A stretch of 32,716 nucleotides of DNA from a virus, in IMG/VR virus record IMGVR_UViG_3300025120_000272, positions 1 to 32,716 of that record; one strand, written 5' to 3'. Position numbers and translations under genes: made by a program. Shown piece by piece: positions 1-32,678 of the stretch (the first letter of the stretch is position 1; every line of letters starts with the position of its first letter). The notes beneath the pieces were generated by a model. It was given only the letters and a program-made list of their open reading frames with translations, was not told where the DNA came from and made no database searches.

Positions 1-1284
1 TGCAATATCGCTGAATGGTTGTCCTGCATCTTCAGGACTTCTTTTGAATGTGTGTACTGCTAATGCGGCCACACTGTTACCTATCTGATCACCTAGATCT
101 GTGCTTTTGTCTATTGCATATGAAACAGTGTTTGGAGTAAAGGTATACCTACCGTTGCTTTCTTTTGGTGTACCTACATATAGCAAGTCACCCATAAGAT
201 AACCTTTCATACCTTTTGGTGTTTGTGCTTCTAGTGCAGGCCATATAGTTTTATACATGTTAACAAGATCACCTCGTTCGCCACCACGTTGTTGCATTAT
301 CTTTTCTAATTGTGTTGAGCTTGTTGCTAATCCATTATAACCTTTAGCAGTGAATCCTGACTTGTCTGTTAACACAAACTGTCCTTGTGGATTACGTCCA
401 AAAACAATCGCAGGTTTTCCGTCCCATTTAATTGTGATGTCTTCAGCTTGCTTGGGTAATGATCTGAGGGTAGCAATAGCTTTAAGTGCACCTTGGCTGG
501 CACCATCAAATATCATATCTTCAGGATGTTCTATACGAGCCGCTTCTATAATTACTTGCATACCTTGATTAACAATACGATCTCTTAAACGTGCTAAAAA
601 GTTTGCATCATTGGCATCTTCTAATACCAATCCATCTTTTTCAAATGTTTCCTTTGCATCTGCCACTAGTGTTTCGTATTCAGGATCTTGTTTGACTTTA
701 GCAATTATTGATTCAACTGAATTTAAATCTTTACGTGTTCCACCAATTAATATTTTAGCAATTTCGTCTGGATCAACTGATAACAATCTGTTACTGTCTC
801 TAACCAACAGACCATTTTTATAACTCCATTTAAGTCCTCTTGCTTTGGCAATACTTGCTAATAGGATATGTCTATGCACTCCTTTAAATTCGCTGTTTCC
901 AACAACATTTAAACTAAACTTTTGCCAGTCTGGATTACCAAACATAAAGTCTGCTTGTACATAACCATTGTTGGGATCACCTTTTATAGGTGCTTTGTAA
1001 TGAACACTGTCGCCCGACTTAGCGATATCTTTGTCATCCACGCCTTTGGCCTTGAGTGTTTGTATTAGTTGTTCTTTTGAAGTTTTTGTAACATCAACTG
1101 ATAGATCTAAATCACCACTGGTTGCTTTATTACCTGTACTACCTAACATGTTATCTTGCAAGGATAATCCAGTAAGTTTTTCTAATTGTTGTATTGTTGG
1201 CTTAATGTCAGCAAGATTGATACGTTGCGTTAACGGTTGTTTGTTTTCGTCTTTGAATACGTTACCGCCCTCAAGTATTATCAT
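1..1284 (-). CDS. Two-domain nucleotidyltransferase-like protein (pol-beta-type plus KxDG ligase-like), 3' end outside window
   Basis: Starts at ATG 1284 (ATGA overlap with the upstream gene's stop) and stays open to base 1, giving 428 visible residues; the C-terminus is missing. Residues 48-64 hold a G-S...G-D-L-D-L-S-V-D motif, and D112 sits in QADFMF. Together these match the GS plus three-Asp pattern of pol-beta-fold nucleotidyltransferases. Residues 286-289 are KWDG, matching motif I (KxDG, adenylated lysine) of ATP-dependent ligases and RNA-capping enzymes; a GYLMGDLLYVG block about 80 residues later resembles the ligase 'GEL' motif. The N-terminus MIILE|GG fits a T4 prohead-protease (I/L-x-E) cleavage site. 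Inference: an RNA/DNA end-modifying or nucleotide-transferring enzyme, possibly packaged in the capsid. Both domain calls rest on motifs only; the substrate is unknown. Confidence 0.6.
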   Translation of the reverse strand, partial: MIILEGGNVFKDENKQPLTQRINLADIKPTIQQLEKLTGLSLQDNMLGSTGNKATSGDLDLSVDVTKTSKEQLIQTLKAKGVDDKDIAKSGDSVHYKAPIKGDPNNGYVQADFMFGNPDWQKFSLNVVGNSEFKGVHRHILLASIAKARGLKWSYKNGLLVRDSNRLLSVDPDEIAKILIGGTRKDLNSVESIIAKVKQDPEYETLVADAKETFEKDGLVLEDANDANFLARLRDRIVNQGMQVIIEAARIEHPEDMIFDGASQGALKAIATLRSLPKQAEDITIKWDGKPAIVFGRNPQGQFVLTDKSGFTAKGYNGLATSSTQLEKIMQQRGGERGDLVNMYKTIWPALEAQTPKGMKGYLMGDLLYVGTPKESNGRYTFTPNTVSYAIDKSTDLGDQIGNSVAALAVHTFKRSPEDAGQPFSDIA

Positions 1285-2080: not shown

Positions 2081-2088
2081 TATTTATC
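2081..2088 (-). promoter_or_regulatory. Late-type promoter octamer GATAAATA
   Basis: Minus-strand GATAAATA differs from the T4 late consensus TATAAATA only at the first base. With T4 spacing (octamer at -13 to -6), +1 falls on an A at 2075, giving a 20-nt leader with a purine-rich stretch before the ATG at 2055. It overlaps the stop codon of the radical SAM gene. Confidence 0.65.
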
Positions 2089-3079
2089 AGGAACCGCAAA
2101 CATCGTTACAGATAACTAAACGGCCATTGTTGAAATCTTTATTACTCCAACTTTCCTCAACACTATTAAACCAACTAATACTTTCTTGTAAAGAAGTTTC
2201 TAACGCATTGTTAGGTTCAATGATGTCCTTTAACTGTTGATTAACTACTTGATAGTATTGTCCATGACCATATGTTCTAGGATAAAAGCCAGTATAACAA
2301 CACGGATATACTTCTCCTGTACTTGTTACATATATTGATTTACTTTTCTTTACTTCACAGGTTATGTTTTTGATCACAGGATTAAGATCTTCTAATAATA
2401 TCTCATCTGTCTTTTTAGATTCTAATAGCTGATCAAAGTTAATAACCTCAGGCTTACCTATTACGTTAATAACCTTGCCTTTTTTGTCAACTGCAACTCC
2501 ATTGTCTCTACCTTGGTCTGTTAACATGAAGTTACTGAATCCAAGTTCTTTACTTAGTGCTTGACATTCTTTAATTTGATGTTGATTATGATCAAAAGGA
2601 ATCATTTTCCAAATAGCATTACCGCCTGCGTTGATAAATGTTTGTGCATTCTTTATTACTGTTTCATATACCGTGTCTTGCCTATATATAGAATGTGTAT
2701 CGGATAATCCGTCCAATGCAAAAAATACTCGAACATCTAGTTTAGCTAACCGTTGCCAAAACTGTTTAGAGCGTGCACCACCATTGGTGTTTATATCTAT
2801 TTTAATATTAGGACTGTATGTTTTAAAATATTCAATGATGTCTGGAGTTTCTGTATTCATAACACAGTCTCCAAAGTTACCATTGATCATTACTCCCGTT
2901 AACTGTTTCACAAAGTTGGGTTCAAATATCTTTTTAACATCTTCAAGTGTGAGGTTTCTTTCTATGTATCCATCATTATAGGGATAGCCGTGAAAGTTAC
3001 GAGGGCATAGTGGACATCGGGCATTACATAAACTAGATATTTCTAAGTGGATATGTTTTATATCATGATAAGAAATCAT
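2087..3079 (-). CDS. Radical SAM enzyme with SPASM/twitch-like C-terminus
   Basis: 330 aa. C18-x3-C22-x2-C25 (CNARCPLC) is the radical SAM [4Fe-4S] motif that binds S-adenosylmethionine. A C-terminal block with C241, C260-C261 (STGEVYPCC) and the terminal C324-x3-C328 resembles the auxiliary-cluster (SPASM/twitch) region of radical SAM enzymes that modify peptides or carbohydrates. NGG near 99-101 and the ALDGLSDTHS block near 121-130 fit the TIM-barrel core. The stop-to-start junction with gp41 upstream is adjacent (TAAATG), so it probably sits in the replication transcript. The substrate is unknown: it could modify a phage or host peptide, or a sugar. Confidence 0.85.
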   Translation of the reverse strand: MISYHDIKHIHLEISSLCNARCPLCPRNFHGYPYNDGYIERNLTLEDVKKIFEPNFVKQLTGVMINGNFGDCVMNTETPDIIEYFKTYSPNIKIDINTNGGARSKQFWQRLAKLDVRVFFALDGLSDTHSIYRQDTVYETVIKNAQTFINAGGNAIWKMIPFDHNQHQIKECQALSKELGFSNFMLTDQGRDNGVAVDKKGKVINVIGKPEVINFDQLLESKKTDEILLEDLNPVIKNITCEVKKSKSIYVTSTGEVYPCCYTGFYPRTYGHGQYYQVVNQQLKDIIEPNNALETSLQESISWFNSVEESWSNKDFNNGRLVICNDVCGS

Positions 3080-7329: not shown

Positions 7330-8323
7330 GAAATAGATCAATCTGATCGCTAGTGTTTGCAGAGTAACTATCCCATAACTTCCAAAAATGTTCAATATTA
7401 TGATCTAAAACGGGTTGGCAATCTCTTGTGAATTGATCAAGATCTAAACTTAATAACCTTTCAATTTCAGTTACTAACCAAGCTCTTCTGTCTTCCCATC
7501 TATTTAGACTTGCAAAGTCTTCCTTAATGATACCGCTAAATGTTTTAAATCCTAATTCTTTCAGCCTCTTATAATGATTGGCACTTGCTAGTGCTAAGAA
7601 TGGATGTCCAGTAATAATTGGTTTCCATGATTTTTCAGTTATTAAAGAATATCTATGTAATACTGTACTTTCAGCAAATACCGAGAAGTACGTGTCAGAG
7701 TACTGATTAACGATGGCTGGTCCCGCCGCCCACTTATCCCAATCAATTAAATCCTTTCCTGAATAAGGACCATACTTTTTTGGTAATTTTTTACTGAATG
7801 GTGCATCGTCATTACCCATATTAATGTTAGACCATAATGCCTTGTCTAACAATTCCTTGCGATACAGATCTCTAATTAATTTAGCTCGATGGGTTCTTAC
7901 TCTATTATTGAGAAATAAAAATGTGTACGGACGATCAATATAACGTATCATAATATTTCGATTGTCTTGATTAACGTTACCTGTCAGCCACATCATGTAT
8001 TCAATGTTTAACGAATTCATTTGTTCTGGCATTTCACCTGAACAAATAATGCTAAACTTTTTATCTAATGCTAGCTTTAACAAACCGTCATTGTCGAGGT
8101 GTCTGATAAGCGTGCTAGACCCCTCTATGCAGTTTTCTAATACAATATGATCATTAGTGTTCTTGATATAATCTATATGTGCATCACTGTCTTCACAGTA
8201 GGTAGCTACTGGTATTATTTTTATTGCGTCTTTAGGAAGGGTAGGTAGCTCTGCTGTTGAGTAATGATCAGCTCGATTGTAAAAGTCTTTAAGTTTACTG
8301 CTCTTGTGTATGTAAATTTTCAT
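7304..8323 (-). CDS. GT-B-like glycosyltransferase candidate (paralogue of 13206-14189)
   Basis: 339 aa. The C-terminal block at about 213-262 (FAESTVLHRYSLITEKSWKP... GHPFLALAS ... LKELGFKTF) has the 'E...TEK..KP...G.P' pattern of nucleotide-sugar-binding C-terminal Rossmann domains, such as in GT10-type fucosyltransferases. The same block recurs in the plus-strand protein at 13206-14189 (STEKTTRPLLGCKPMIIYGS...LRQIGFKTW). So two diverged paralogues flank the replication genes. Last gene of the uvsW-led transcript; overlaps the DnaE-like gene by 29 nt. The sugar donor and acceptor cannot be told; a target such as DNA, virion protein or host glycan is open. Confidence 0.5.
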   Translation of the reverse strand: MKIYIHKSSKLKDFYNRADHYSTAELPTLPKDAIKIIPVATYCEDSDAHIDYIKNTNDHIVLENCIEGSSTLIRHLDNDGLLKLALDKKFSIICSGEMPEQMNSLNIEYMMWLTGNVNQDNRNIMIRYIDRPYTFLFLNNRVRTHRAKLIRDLYRKELLDKALWSNINMGNDDAPFSKKLPKKYGPYSGKDLIDWDKWAAGPAIVNQYSDTYFSVFAESTVLHRYSLITEKSWKPIITGHPFLALASANHYKRLKELGFKTFSGIIKEDFASLNRWEDRRAWLVTEIERLLSLDLDQFTRDCQPVLDHNIEHFWKLWDSYSANTSDQIDLFLSQFAEQV

Positions 8324-8882
8324 CTAGTAGTTTCATATGTAATGTTACCAACAAGGCATAGCTAACAGCATGTGACTTTTTAAAGAAGTATTGGTCATCT
8401 GTTTTTGTCCATATATCCTTACTTATATCTGCCCATGTCTTTCCTACCAAGTGTCGTTTTGCTGGACGTATAAGTGCCAGAAACATTGCCATGCGTGGTA
8501 TTGTATCTAGTGCTAAATCACCTACCAGATCATAATGATTACCAATGTGTATTATCTGTTCAAAGAACTCACGTTCCTGTAATCTTGCCCACGGAACATC
8601 ACGGGCCATCAATTGATCGTAATGTGCCTGATCTTTAATTAACTTATAAACATTGACATTAAGAAAGTCGATTTTAAAGTAACCACGTTCTTCTGCTGAT
8701 TGATAATCAATTGAGGCTGTGTCTGTCAATGGATTATAAGGAATGTCTGTTACGTACACACCTGAATTATGCTTACGTATACCTTGATCATTATTCTGCA
8801 TTGCAGAAGTATGCTTAATTAATTTAAGTATATCATCGCGATCAGCGAAGTCAATATCAACGTCTGTATTAAATTTTACCAT
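8295..8882 (-). CDS. DnaE (DNA polymerase III alpha)-like mini-protein
   Basis: 195 aa against about 1,100 for DnaE, yet it keeps the catalytic-core landmarks in order. DVDIDFADRDD (7-17) matches DnaE DFDIDFC..RRDEV with two palm Asp (D9, D11). RKHNSGVYVT (36-45) matches GKHAGGVVIA. YFKIDFLNVNVY (68-79) matches VKFDFLGLRTL with the third Asp (D72). MFLALIRPAKRHLVG (133-147) matches the ALFRPGPL block. YFFKKSHAVSYALLV (165-179) matches YGFNKSHSAAYALV of the fingers. The PHP, beta-binding and OB domains are absent. This looks like a drastically reduced C-family polymerase core, active or scaffold unknown. Transcribed with uvsW and gp62-like genes; overlaps neighbours by 29 and 7 nt. The homology call is from remembered DnaE sequence and needs a profile search. 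Confidence 0.7.
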   Translation of the reverse strand: MVKFNTDVDIDFADRDDILKLIKHTSAMQNNDQGIRKHNSGVYVTDIPYNPLTDTASIDYQSAEERGYFKIDFLNVNVYKLIKDQAHYDQLMARDVPWARLQEREFFEQIIHIGNHYDLVGDLALDTIPRMAMFLALIRPAKRHLVGKTWADISKDIWTKTDDQYFFKKSHAVSYALLVTLHMKLLDENLHTQEQ

Positions 8883-9568
8883 CCTGCTTGTTTTAACATT
8901 TCCTTAACATATTCTGTGTCACCTGGATAGTCACGTAATATTTTTGACCAACGATCAGGATTAATAAGTTCATACACTATAGCCAACTGTTCTTGATTTA
9001 AACTTTCTAACAGCTCGTGACCTGAGGGACAATTAAATATTATCCAACCTGTTATTCTACCAGTAACAATGTAATGACATAGTTTATTGCAGTTACCATA
9101 ACGCAAGAAGTCTTCGCTTGGCGATTTAACTTCTTCTGCCCAATCCATTGATGTTTCTAATGCTCTGGTTAATGCGTCTGTGGCATTTTCTCTAAAGATA
9201 TATTCCTTTAAAAATTCATCATAAAGTTTATCACTGCCCCAATAGTCTATACGCTTGTTATTTTTTAATAACCATTCAGTGAACCTAACAGTATTAATTA
9301 CACGAGCATTAACGCAATAGTTAGCAAACTTAATAAACGCTTTATAGTATGCTGATGTAGCAAAGTCATCAAATGTTTTTGACTTTGCAGATCCCTGACT
9401 TGTTTCATAAAACTTTAAATAACTCTGAAATGCCATACGACTTGGTGGATCATTTTTATGTTGAAAACGTTTCTTTTGCTCACAGACATGTACGGCCAGT
9501 GTGGTCTCCTTACGGAATTCACGCCCACAATATTTACATTTAAAAGTCTGCTTTAATTCGCTTGTCAT
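8876..9568 (-). CDS. C2HC zinc-finger replication-region protein (possible gp59-type loader)
   Basis: 230 aa. The N-terminus has C11-x2-C14 (CKYCG) and H27-x-C29 (VHVCE), a C2HC zinc finger likely to contact nucleic acid. The rest is helical. About residues 95-130 (RFTEWLLKNNKRIDYWGSDKLYDEF, then EYIFRE) weakly resemble the region of T4 gp59 with pattern F..xL..N.....W..D......F..EYI.R. That suggests, but does not prove, a helicase-loader relation. Sits between the gp62-like and DnaE-like genes with 29- and 7-nt overlaps, so it is probably a replisome accessory. Zinc finger confident, gp59 link weak. Confidence 0.5.
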   Translation of the reverse strand: MTSELKQTFKCKYCGREFRKETTLAVHVCEQKKRFQHKNDPPSRMAFQSYLKFYETSQGSAKSKTFDDFATSAYYKAFIKFANYCVNARVINTVRFTEWLLKNNKRIDYWGSDKLYDEFLKEYIFRENATDALTRALETSMDWAEEVKSPSEDFLRYGNCNKLCHYIVTGRITGWIIFNCPSGHELLESLNQEQLAIVYELINPDRWSKILRDYPGDTEYVKEMLKQAGW

Positions 9569-10016
9569 CCCATCCTAGTTCTTTACAATATTGTTTAATT
9601 TCTTTTTGAGTATTCATTTCCAAAAACATATCCATCTCATCTGACTTCATGTTTGGAAATAATTCAGCTACTACTTTTCTTATTTTGTTAGTCGACTTGC
9701 CCTCTTTCTTTTTGGCCGCTTGCCAATAGTGAAACTGTTTGCCCATATTAGGACTAACTGCTGTACACATTAACCATTGTAACTTTGTATGCTTGTTTAG
9801 ATCAAAGAAGTATTTGTTAACATATTTGTTTGTGGCCATTAGATAGTATGCCTGCAGATCTCTATTACCACCTACTGACGCTCCATAACGCAACATCAAA
9901 TATGTTGAAAACTGTTTCTTTTCCTCATCAGTGAACTTGTCATAGTAGTCCCTGTCCTTGCGATCAAAGGCCGCCATCTCATTACCGATATATAAAGGTG
10001 AATTTGTATTTGCCAT
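9540..10016 (-). CDS. 62: Clamp-loader small subunit-like protein (gp62-like)
   Basis: 158 aa (T4 gp62 is 187). Residues about 79-103, LQWLMCTAVSPNMGKQFHYW and following, line up with T4 gp62 FNYLMAAVPRGKRYGKW, sharing LM, a V-(S)P, G-K and a terminal W. The upstream segment YLMATNKYVNKYFFDL and the helical C-terminus fit the all-helical gp62 type. gp62 joins gp44 to load the gp45 clamp. gp44 and gp45 are not in this window, which is unusual for a gene normally beside them, so the call is tentative. Overlaps the next gene by 29 nt and the previous one by 1 nt. Confidence 0.5.
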   Translation of the reverse strand: MANTNSPLYIGNEMAAFDRKDRDYYDKFTDEEKKQFSTYLMLRYGASVGGNRDLQAYYLMATNKYVNKYFFDLNKHTKLQWLMCTAVSPNMGKQFHYWQAAKKKEGKSTNKIRKVVAELFPNMKSDEMDMFLEMNTQKEIKQYCKELGWDDKRIKADF

Positions 10017-10516
10017 TAGAATGATAACGTATAATTAACTATTTCACAATTACGGCTTATATCCTTAACAAAATAACAACATTTAGGAGTAGGTCCGTCC
10101 TCTAAAGGTACTGCTAGTAACTGTCCATTTTTAAGTTTAGGGCTATACCACGAAACATCTTGATAGACATCTACAATTTCTATATCCAAGAAACTTGGTC
10201 TAAAGTCAGTTAAACTATTAAATTGAAATGCTCTAAATCCTCTATCATTAATTGATGTTAACGGTAATACTTCTAAATCTCCGACATCAGGTTCGCCAAT
10301 TAATATTTGCCAATCCACAGGCATTTTGATAGTATTATTACCTATCTTTAATACCAATGCTGGTGAATTAAAACTTTCTAAAAAGATTAACGGTATCCAA
10401 TGATAATCTGGATTTCCTGGATCACTGTTATCCAGTATGCTAAAACGCATATCATCTATTTCATCAGGAAGTGTAGCCAAGTCGTACTTTGTATTTTCTA
10501 ATGTAAGTATTTGCAT
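10016..10516 (-). CDS. Unknown 166-aa protein in the uvsW operon
   Basis: Start chosen at ATG 10516 (MQILTLENTKYDL), which has AAGGG about 6 nt upstream; the longer frame from TTG 10555 has no ribosome-binding site. Mixed alpha/beta, acidic, with many aromatic residues: HWIPLIFLESFNSPALVLKI, MPVDWQILIGE, and a C-terminal WYSPKLKNGQLLAVPL...CCYFVKD. No catalytic motif that I recognise. Placed between uvsW and the gp62-like gene, so expressed early with replication functions. A transcription or replication accessory role is possible but unsupported. Confidence 0.7.
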   Translation of the reverse strand: MQILTLENTKYDLATLPDEIDDMRFSILDNSDPGNPDYHWIPLIFLESFNSPALVLKIGNNTIKMPVDWQILIGEPDVGDLEVLPLTSINDRGFRAFQFNSLTDFRPSFLDIEIVDVYQDVSWYSPKLKNGQLLAVPLEDGPTPKCCYFVKDISRNCEIVNYTLSF

Positions 10517-31638: not shown

Positions 31639-32121
31639 TTATTTTTTGTATTTGTTTGTGACGTTCTTGGCAGAACCTTTTCTATCTTTGTTTGGATCGT
31701 TTCTGCGTTTTCTGTTAACTGCTTGTGCTATTGCTTTCTTACCGCCTTTAGCTCTTAAACTAGCCGCCTTAGATTTTGATAAACATTTAGGTTTGCCTTC
31801 GCCTTTCTTGGCATCTCCACACTTACCTATACGCTCACCTTTACTATTGTAACGGTCCCAACCGCCACCACCAGCTCCGCCTTTCTTACCTTTGCCAAAC
31901 CAGTCTTTAAGATCTTCGTTTGTCTTATCTTCTTTCTTAACACAGTTTGGAACACGCTTGCCAAACATAGTCTTCATGCCTTTCTTTTTATAGCCGTCCC
32001 AACATTTTTCGTCGGTTCTTGATTTTTTAGGTGTTTTACGACACTTCATTTTCTTATCATGAGAACAGTAGTATTCACCATACTGACAATTTAGTTCTGT
32101 AATAAAGTCACTGGCACGCAT
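31639..32121 (-). CDS. Basic Cys-containing protein with capsid-targeting-like N-terminus
   Basis: 160 aa, highly basic. It starts MRASDFITE|LNCQYG; T4 internal protein I starts with a comparable MKTYQEFIAE|A and is cut after I-x-E by gp21. Then two Cys-rich parts (CQYGEYYCSHDKKMKCRKTP and CGDAKKGEGKPKCLSK) and Lys/Arg-rich tail SKAASLRAKGGKKAIAQAVN, RKRRNDPNKDRKG. The WDRYNSKGERIGKCGDAKKG block looks like a phage domain (similar to the DUF5872 type, from memory). The Lys-rich body and CTS-like head suggest a DNA-bound protein packaged in the capsid. ATG overlaps the previous stop by 1 nt. Confidence 0.65.
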   Translation of the reverse strand: MRASDFITELNCQYGEYYCSHDKKMKCRKTPKKSRTDEKCWDGYKKKGMKTMFGKRVPNCVKKEDKTNEDLKDWFGKGKKGGAGGGGWDRYNSKGERIGKCGDAKKGEGKPKCLSKSKAASLRAKGGKKAIAQAVNRKRRNDPNKDRKGSAKNVTNKYKK

Positions 32122-32678
32122 TATTTTTTACTCTTGTTGCCCCAATTCTTAGCACCTACTTTACGGCACTTAACTAAAGCACCTGAAGCATATGCACTAG
32201 GCCATACTTTGTATCTTGATTTTACTTTATGATAGCAAGCATCCTTTTCTCCTGCCGCTTCATCAAACTGTGCTTCTGTTAAACCTTGATCTTCGTGCAT
32301 TCCAAAGTTACCTGCAGTAGATGTCTGTTTAATGTCTTTTTGTTCTGCCCAAACGTCTATTGACATAGCAAGTTGAAAATCCAGCACTGTAAGGCCCTTA
32401 ACGTCAAACGTAGATGTCTTTACTTTAACTTCTGTAACGTCTTGTGTTACTTCTGCGAAGTGATCCATCTTTTCAGATAGGTCATTGATAAAGCCTATCA
32501 TTTCCTCTGCTTGTCTATGATCCTGGCAGACATACATTGTAGTAAGTTCTCTATGATCTAACATTTCCCAGTCTGGGAGATATTTGTTTTTAACTTTGTC
32601 AAGTTGCTCATCGTTAGGCACAAATTCCTCAACATCATTCTCTCTGTATTTGCCTTCCTGAATTTCTAGGATTTTCAT
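32121..32678 (-). CDS. Putative capsid-targeted protein with conserved C-terminal Cys/basic domain
   Basis: 185 aa. N-terminus MKILEIQE|GKYREND: short helix ending I-Q-E then G, fitting the prohead-protease site. The middle (about 20-120) is an acidic alpha/beta domain (MLDHRELTTMYVCQDHRQAEE; VTEVKVKTSTFDVKGLTVLD). The C-terminus holds the module KDACYHKVKSRYKVWPSAYA followed by SGALVKCRKVGAKNWG, which, from memory, recurs at the ends of marine T4-like phage proteins. Basic and with two Cys, it may bind DNA. Probably late and co-packaged with the next gene product. Confidence 0.65.
   Translation of the reverse strand: MKILEIQEGKYRENDVEEFVPNDEQLDKVKNKYLPDWEMLDHRELTTMYVCQDHRQAEEMIGFINDLSEKMDHFAEVTQDVTEVKVKTSTFDVKGLTVLDFQLAMSIDVWAEQKDIKQTSTAGNFGMHEDQGLTEAQFDEAAGEKDACYHKVKSRYKVWPSAYASGALVKCRKVGAKNWGNKSKK

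Follow-up and report, generated by a model that had tools for sequence, protein, structure and literature searches.

A family-X-type nucleotidyltransferase joined to a DUF6267 domain with ligase-like motifs: a candidate head-packaged end-repair protein of marine phages

Can a single phage polypeptide combine two different nucleotidyl-transfer chemistries, and could such a protein enter the cell together with the genome? This question is raised by the first gene of the stretch of DNA analysed here (IMG/VR record IMGVR_UViG_3300025120_000272, 32,716 nt, hereafter the window), which originates from a marine virus of bacteria, i.e. a phage. The ORF starts with ATG, runs on the minus strand from position 1284 to 1 and is open at the window edge (Table 1). 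A first-pass annotation had located the motifs GS (residues 48-49), DLD (58-60), QAD (110-112), KWDG (286-289) and GDLL (365-368) in its product, and all of these positions are correct. The C-terminus, which that annotation lacked, was obtained from a full-length copy in the 132-kb contig IMGVR_UViG_3300001472_000005 (L003:6001-7806). This copy has a normal end, encodes 601 aa and is 100% identical over the 428 aa; in the part beyond the window, HEGYV at 575 and KLVDR at 584 add two more motifs of ligase type. Residues 1-250 of the protein constitute a nucleotidyltransferase (NTase) domain (N-domain) and residues 251-601 a DUF6267 domain (C-domain).

The neighbourhood of the fusion gene is T4-like, with a DnaB-type helicase, a DNA primase, a UvsW-type helicase, RecA/UvsX, part of a DNA polymerase and a T4-type terminase. 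As a side observation, a radical SAM protein with a SPASM domain is encoded at positions 2087-3079 (minus strand) of the window, and the 132-kb contig contains ORFs resembling IscS and IscU by eye, along with a B12-binding radical SAM protein detected by Pfam (L334:6470-8082 and 8239-10308). A phage-borne Fe-S supply together with radical SAM enzymes would be unusual, if this is what these genes represent.

Table 1. Features of the fusion gene and of the gene upstream of it (window positions; a slash marks the putative processing site)
Feature	Position	Strand	Evidence or remark
PolX-type NTase and DUF6267 fusion gene	1..1284	-	5' 428 codons of a 601-codon gene; remainder beyond the window
DUF6267 (PF19782), first part, residues 251-428	1..534	-	Pfam E 1.9e-24
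GYLMGDLLY, residues 361-369, motif III-like, D366 invariant	178..204	-	75 relatives; strand 126-135 of the C-domain model
TDKSGF, residues 306-311, motif Ia-like, K308 nearly invariant	352..369	-	75 relatives
KWDG, ligase motif I, residues 286-289, putative AMP-accepting K286	418..429	-	75 relatives
Pol X-like thumb region, residues 118-187	724..933	-	hhalign of SEFKGVHRHILLASIAKARGLKWSYKNGLL...EIAKIL with the PolX thumb; model helices 118-124, 135-148, 172-180
Third catalytic Asp D112 in VQADFMFG, residues 109-116	937..960	-	invariant in 45 relatives; hhalign to PolX
Palm motif LGSTGNKATSGDLDLSVD, residues 47-64, catalytic D58 and D60	1093..1146	-	invariant in 45 relatives; hhalign onto PolX DxD
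MIILE/GG, putative prohead-protease (gp21-type) propeptide, residues 1-5	1270..1284	-	76 distinct N-termini; disordered in the model
Upstream gene, 179 aa	1281..1820	-	4-base overlap with the fusion gene; N-terminus MKINEIINE/G, processing-signal-like

In an alignment of 45 divergent N-domains the residues G48, S56, G57, D58, D60, K70, Q110 and D112 are invariant. The AF2 model of the N-domain (mean pLDDT 90) was compared with the PDB using Foldseek, which yielded 107 matches with E<=1e-3 (best E 3.5e-5, TM ~0.42-0.48), and the best 50 of these 107 consist entirely of Pol X enzymes (Pol lambda, mu and beta, and Tth PolX). In line with this, hhalign aligned the N-domain with bacterial PolX at P 1.8e-4 for a set of 52 mostly Bacillus-type loci (collected with a probe modelled on B. 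subtilis PolX, matches up to 97% identical) and at P 3.2e-6 for a set of 29 sequences obtained via Pfam PF14791 from the phylum of a Gemmataceae genome. The alignment places DLD on the PolX DxD and QAD on the third Asp, and it runs on through the thumb. The control comparisons gave P 0.24 with RlaP and P 0.58 with an RNA ligase profile. The Pol lambda palm motif (GSYRRGKATCGDVDVLIT) resembles GSTGNKATSGDLDLSVD of the N-domain; this is a lead and not a test. Pfam scans of the 45 N-domain members detected no Pol X or Pol beta model at E<=10, a search of PDB sequences with profiles of both domains returned chance matches only, and no NTase relatives were found in bacterial genomes (GTDB contigs).

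The 8-kDa lyase and fingers (HhH) domains are absent from the N-domain, since the palm begins at about residue 20 and leaves no space ahead of it. Thus, the N-domain shares with the family X polymerases (Pol lambda, beta and mu, bacterial PolX) the palm DxD, the third Asp and the thumb, but differs from them by the lack of the 8-kDa and fingers domains, by its fusion to DUF6267 and by a divergence too large for Pfam. Its assignment as a family-X-type (Pol beta/lambda) polymerase core consisting of palm and thumb is well supported by the profile alignments and the model, while template-dependent gap filling is a prediction only. Membership of the NTase in the RlaP family was rejected on the profile comparison given above, and Pfam did not match PF10127 in any of the same 45 members. 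RlaP NTases with their RNA ligases (PF10127; PMC7824862) likewise combine an NTase of Pol beta fold with a ligase; the protein described here differs from them by the missing profile similarity, by the fusion of the domains and by its processing-type N-terminus.

The second half of the protein belongs to a family of wide distribution. The complete C-domain matches nearly the entire PF19782 model (positions 4-374 of 376) with E 3e-42 and 145.8 bits (cut-off 27). DUF6267 corresponds to PHROG 455 and is present in at least 410 sequenced phages, nearly all of them T4-like cyanophages; in the literature searched we found no mention of it. It occurs in cyanophages without the NTase, while in the fusion protein it is joined to it. 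Among 75 relatives of the C-domain, mostly with ~25-35% identity, K286, D288, D366, E576, G577 and K584 are invariant and W287, G289, V579 and R588 nearly so. Hence the lysine of KWDG, on whose conservation the first-pass reading depended, is found in all 75 relatives. The motif order KxDG, G[DE], EGxV, K is the order expected of lysine-adenylating ligases, with motif III of the fusion protein reading GD and not GE. Since the catalytic Asp residues are invariant in 45 N-domains and the ligase-motif residues in 75 C-domains, motif conservation in both domains is far above chance.

The AF2 model of the C-domain (pLDDT 93, pTM 0.89) contains a helical block inserted ahead of motif IV, at about residues 450-562. 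DNA ligase IV, archaeal DNA and RNA ligases, tRNA ligases and the ligase of African swine fever virus (ASFV) lead the matches of this model in the PDB, which also include LigD. Ligases dominate the structural matches, as would be expected for the ligase-like domain proposed in the first-pass annotation, but these PDB matches are weak (best E 0.059, TM ~0.2). In a library of viral structures the DUF6267 proteins themselves are followed by PA5oct A0A4Y5JUK8 (E 1e-4), an Atu_ph07 RNA ligase (E 1e-3, prob 0.99) and further RNA ligases. Comparison of DUF6267 by hhalign with alignments of viral DNA ligases (gp30-like), T4 Rnl2-type ligases and PF09414 RNA ligases gave no significant result; the best P value, 0.039, lies off the motifs, and the others range from 0.14 to 0.47. 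As a positive control, the broad RNA ligase set finds gp30-like ligases (P 2e-5) and Rnl2 (P 3e-20). Comparison with single T4 ligases was also not significant, and the pairing of gp30-like with Rnl2 is uninformative because its positive control failed. Pfam scans of all family members detected no ligase or polymerase model.

Should DUF6267 then be regarded as a ligase at all? The non-significant profile comparisons and the weak PDB matches would be compatible with KWDG, EGYV and KxVDR being part of an unrelated nucleotide-binding fold. We consider this quite unlikely, since the motif residues are invariant and in the right order at ~25% identity and since ligases head both structure libraries when DUF6267 itself is excluded. 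Further, DUF6267 gives two collinear local matches (P 0.0023 and 0.0026) to a set of three ligase-like sequences from jumbo phages. An additional argument comes from the locus L080:707-3831 (IMGVR_UViG_3300028400_000083), where the DUF6267 gene is broken by a split intein directly after KWDG. The N-intein at the end of the first ORF was recognized by Pfam Intein_splicing (E 4e-9) and by a match to the NrdJ-1 intein of the PDB (E 2e-13). A later ORF joins an intein-like C-terminal segment, recognized by eye and unscored by Pfam, to the remaining part of DUF6267. Inteins are usually located at catalytic motifs, and given this placement the position fits an essential KWDG. Two short ORFs of unknown family lie between the intein-split halves. 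With the motifs and the weak fold matches on one side and the failed ligase-family profile matches on the other, it is likely, though not proven, that DUF6267 is a ligase-type domain, for which self-adenylation is predicted.

The claim of two nucleotidyl-transfer chemistries on one chain is well supported for the NTase half, which can now be narrowed to family X type. Its ligase half is partly supported, by motifs, weak fold matches and gene context: separate profile searches led from the N-domain to PolX and from the C-domain to DUF6267, but not to a ligase family. The idea that the fusion protein is a simple stand-in for a replicative ligase was weakened by the presence of a PF01068 ligase in two phages with the fused gene (G007 and G008). 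In the 132-kb contig bearing the fusion gene no PF01068 ligase was detected.

The gene context was analysed in 80 loci fetched with the NTase alignment. The NTase is fused to DUF6267 in 16 of them, and in 55 DUF6267 is located downstream within 3.5 kb, in 46 of these 55 within 100 bases or overlapping. At eight loci no DUF6267 was found in the DNA available, and one locus was too short. NTase and DUF6267 thus form a recurring two-gene module, with the genes fused in a subset of phages. In a tree built from 45 NTase domains the fused, adjacent and absent states require nine changes, which suggests that fusion or fission probably arose more than once. The combination, which had been considered unusual, is indeed fused here, but it is not peculiar to the window.

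Homologues of the NTase were detected by HMM also in the jumbo phages Phosso of Sinorhizobium (E 5e-37), Atu_ph07 of Agrobacterium (E 1e-30) and PA5oct of Pseudomonas (E 7e-21), in each case beside or close to a gene with KLDG or KIDG and EGxV...K; in PA5oct two genes separate the NTase homologue from the ligase-like gene. The latter is the best outside match of the DUF6267 profile (E 0.0046). The Pfam RNA_ligase model matches the ligase-like gene of Atu_ph07 at E 0.002 and that of Phosso at E 0.085, both below the Pfam cut-off. In L075:7030-7110 (IMGVR_UViG_3300001605_000008) the fusion gene continues in two overlapping frames after GGERSELINS, where sequencing error, frameshifting and a real break are indistinguishable. 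When the NTase has no ligase-like neighbour (L159:3010-3966, L162:4717-5673, L081:6966-8609), the next gene sometimes encodes another NTase-like protein with GWAST...GDID and its own MRAKEFILE-type start. Directly 3' of an NTase homologue in Flavobacterium phage immuto, a gene for 907 aa (L500:4908-7631) combines GDLD NTase-like and CTP_transf_like segments with a weak peptidase match.

Does the N-terminus indicate that the protein is carried in the phage head? Among 76 distinct N-termini of NTase proteins, which all have the form [LIV]xE/GG, P1 is always E and P1' is G, but since the search pattern required E and G, only P3 (L in 52, I in 22, V in 2) and P2 (ten different residues) are free observations. 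The motif [LI]xE is present at the N-terminus of 74 of the 76 proteins, while [LI]xEG was found in residues 2-10 of 1.5% of 677 other ORFs. In the AF2 model of the N-domain, residues 1-6 are disordered. Stand-alone DUF6267 proteins start with MKFTEYLTE/S..., MIKFSSFITE/D... and similar sequences, and such a CTS-like start was found in 73% of them compared to 15% of other ORFs, a background set with further internal-protein-like genes in it. A gp21-type prohead protease is encoded in contig G001, which bears an identical fusion gene (PF03420, E 1.8e-25); PF03420 was also matched in G006 and gave no match in four further contigs. In T4, gp21 cleaves short N-terminal peptides off the internal proteins and Alt (PMC9958956; PMC5694885), which are ejected with the DNA after this trimming (PMC9958956; PMC9503650). 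The fusion protein resembles these T4 head proteins in its short N-terminal peptide, which differs in comprising five residues only and the processing of which we infer. The [LI]xE/GG N-terminus is likely, judged by sequence, to be a prohead-protease processing site, so the virus may bring its own end-repair enzyme into the cell. The product of the upstream gene and those of two further window genes on the minus strand, 31639-32121 (MRASDFITE/L) and 32121-32678 (MKILEIQE/G), have similar starts and are possibly head-packaged as well.

The suggested delivery with the genome has indirect support from the N-terminus, from the prohead protease gene and from PA5oct, in which ESI-MS/MS identified the NTase homologue EST35_0231 as structural according to the record. 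However, DUF6267 has no virion label in the S-ShM2 record, and the ligase-like neighbour EST35_0228 has no ESI-MS/MS flag in the record of PA5oct. Delivery could also serve another purpose: an injected effector would attach nucleotides to host proteins or to small molecules soon after infection starts and would not be involved in nucleic-acid repair. Pol beta NTases and other head-packaged enzymes have been proposed as protein modifiers (PMC5512222; for T4 Alt, PMC9503650). Further, DUF6267 in many cyanophages adjoins or is fused to an NMNAT-like nucleotidyltransferase, and in cyanophages without the NTase it often lies next to a CTP_transf_like (NMNAT-like) gene. The cyanophage NMNAT-like protein was detected in S-SM1 and S-CREM2 virions (PMC3037559; PMC10665884). 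At one locus an 835-aa ORF (L158:3296-5800) unites an NMNAT-like segment (GRFQPFSKHH; weak, E 0.04) with NTase and DUF6267. Nevertheless, we regard an effector as improbable, because the thumb region, which a protein modifier would not need, is retained, as is every ligase motif, and because the NTase adjoins more than one kind of ligase-like gene.

Based on these observations, we propose that the fusion protein travels in the phage head and repairs nucleic-acid ends in two steps (fill and seal), a predicted mode of action to which we give about an even chance. The precursor would enter the prohead core via the short N-terminal tag ending in [LI]xE/GG and be trimmed by the gp21-type protease, and the enzyme would then be ejected with the DNA. 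According to its fold and triad, the Pol X core would bind two metal ions through D58, D60 and D112 and add nucleotides to a 3'-OH, thereby filling a short gap or extending an end. The motifs of DUF6267 suggest that this domain would adenylate its own K286, hand the AMP over to a 5'-phosphate and seal the break. Ejection, enzymatic steps and substrate are what we infer for this protein. Against an end-repair enzyme we count the ordinary DNA ligase also present in some relatives, the ~10% of NTase loci without DUF6267 nearby, the non-significant ligase profiles, the weak PDB E value and the missing virion label or flag on DUF6267 and the PA5oct neighbour.

As substrate we slightly prefer phage DNA that is gapped or nicked when infection begins, given the similarity of the NTase to gap-filling polymerases and its possible entry together with the genome. 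Cleaved RNA is almost as probable, since RNA ligases are the closest structural relatives among phage proteins and repair by an NTase plus an RNA ligase is already known (PMC7824862). In its specific form, the RNA alternative assumes that the same chemistry acts on tRNAs of host or phage after their cleavage by anticodon nucleases, a role proposed for RlaP NTases together with RNA ligases. The relatives outside DUF6267 in the viral structure library are mostly annotated as RNA ligases, the Pfam RNA_ligase model weakly matches the partner gene of Atu_ph07, and an RNA-ligase-associated Pol beta NTase has been published for jumbo phages (PMC7824862). On the other hand, the NTase is similar to Pol X of DNA repair rather than to RlaP, neither Rfam nor tRNA scans gave a match in the window, no tRNA gene was found in the window or in the examined portions of the 132-kb contig, and an AAA_33-type kinase was not matched in that contig. 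Repair of tRNA ends is therefore possible but somewhat doubtful.

If the proposed fill-and-seal enzyme acts on DNA, it has counterparts elsewhere. In ASFV a small Pol X without the 8-kDa domain acts together with the viral ligase in gap repair (PMC5330486). The N-domain shares the lack of this domain, and the ASFV ligase is among the structural matches of the C-domain; however, the ASFV proteins are separate and belong to a eukaryotic virus, and DUF6267 has no significant similarity to DNA ligases. Bacterial LigD has polymerase and ligase activities on one chain, its polymerase is of the primase type, and it works with Ku. In contrast, the fusion protein is of Pol X type. No Ku gene was found in 14 related genomes or records, and we rejected Ku-dependent NHEJ as an explanation.

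In summary, NTase-plus-ligase repair is already known as a kind, while the pairing of the NTase with DUF6267, their fusion and the packaging-type N-terminus are new. The ligase-type assignment and the Pol X partner provide a testable chemistry for DUF6267 and a possible job for it in hundreds of phages, and Pol X-type NTases paired with ligase-like proteins across phage groups extend the NTase-plus-ligase theme beyond RlaP. It is tempting to speculate, though only tentatively, that the heads of many large marine phages contain a Pol X-ligase repair machine, made up of separate or fused proteins. If true, gaps would be filled and breaks sealed in the DNA as it comes in, before any repair enzyme of host or phage has been synthesized, and the module would be for phages what the repair pair is for ASFV and LigD for bacteria, which would also give DUF6267 its function. 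If the protein is packaged, some phages would begin to repair their genome or RNA as soon as they enter the cell.
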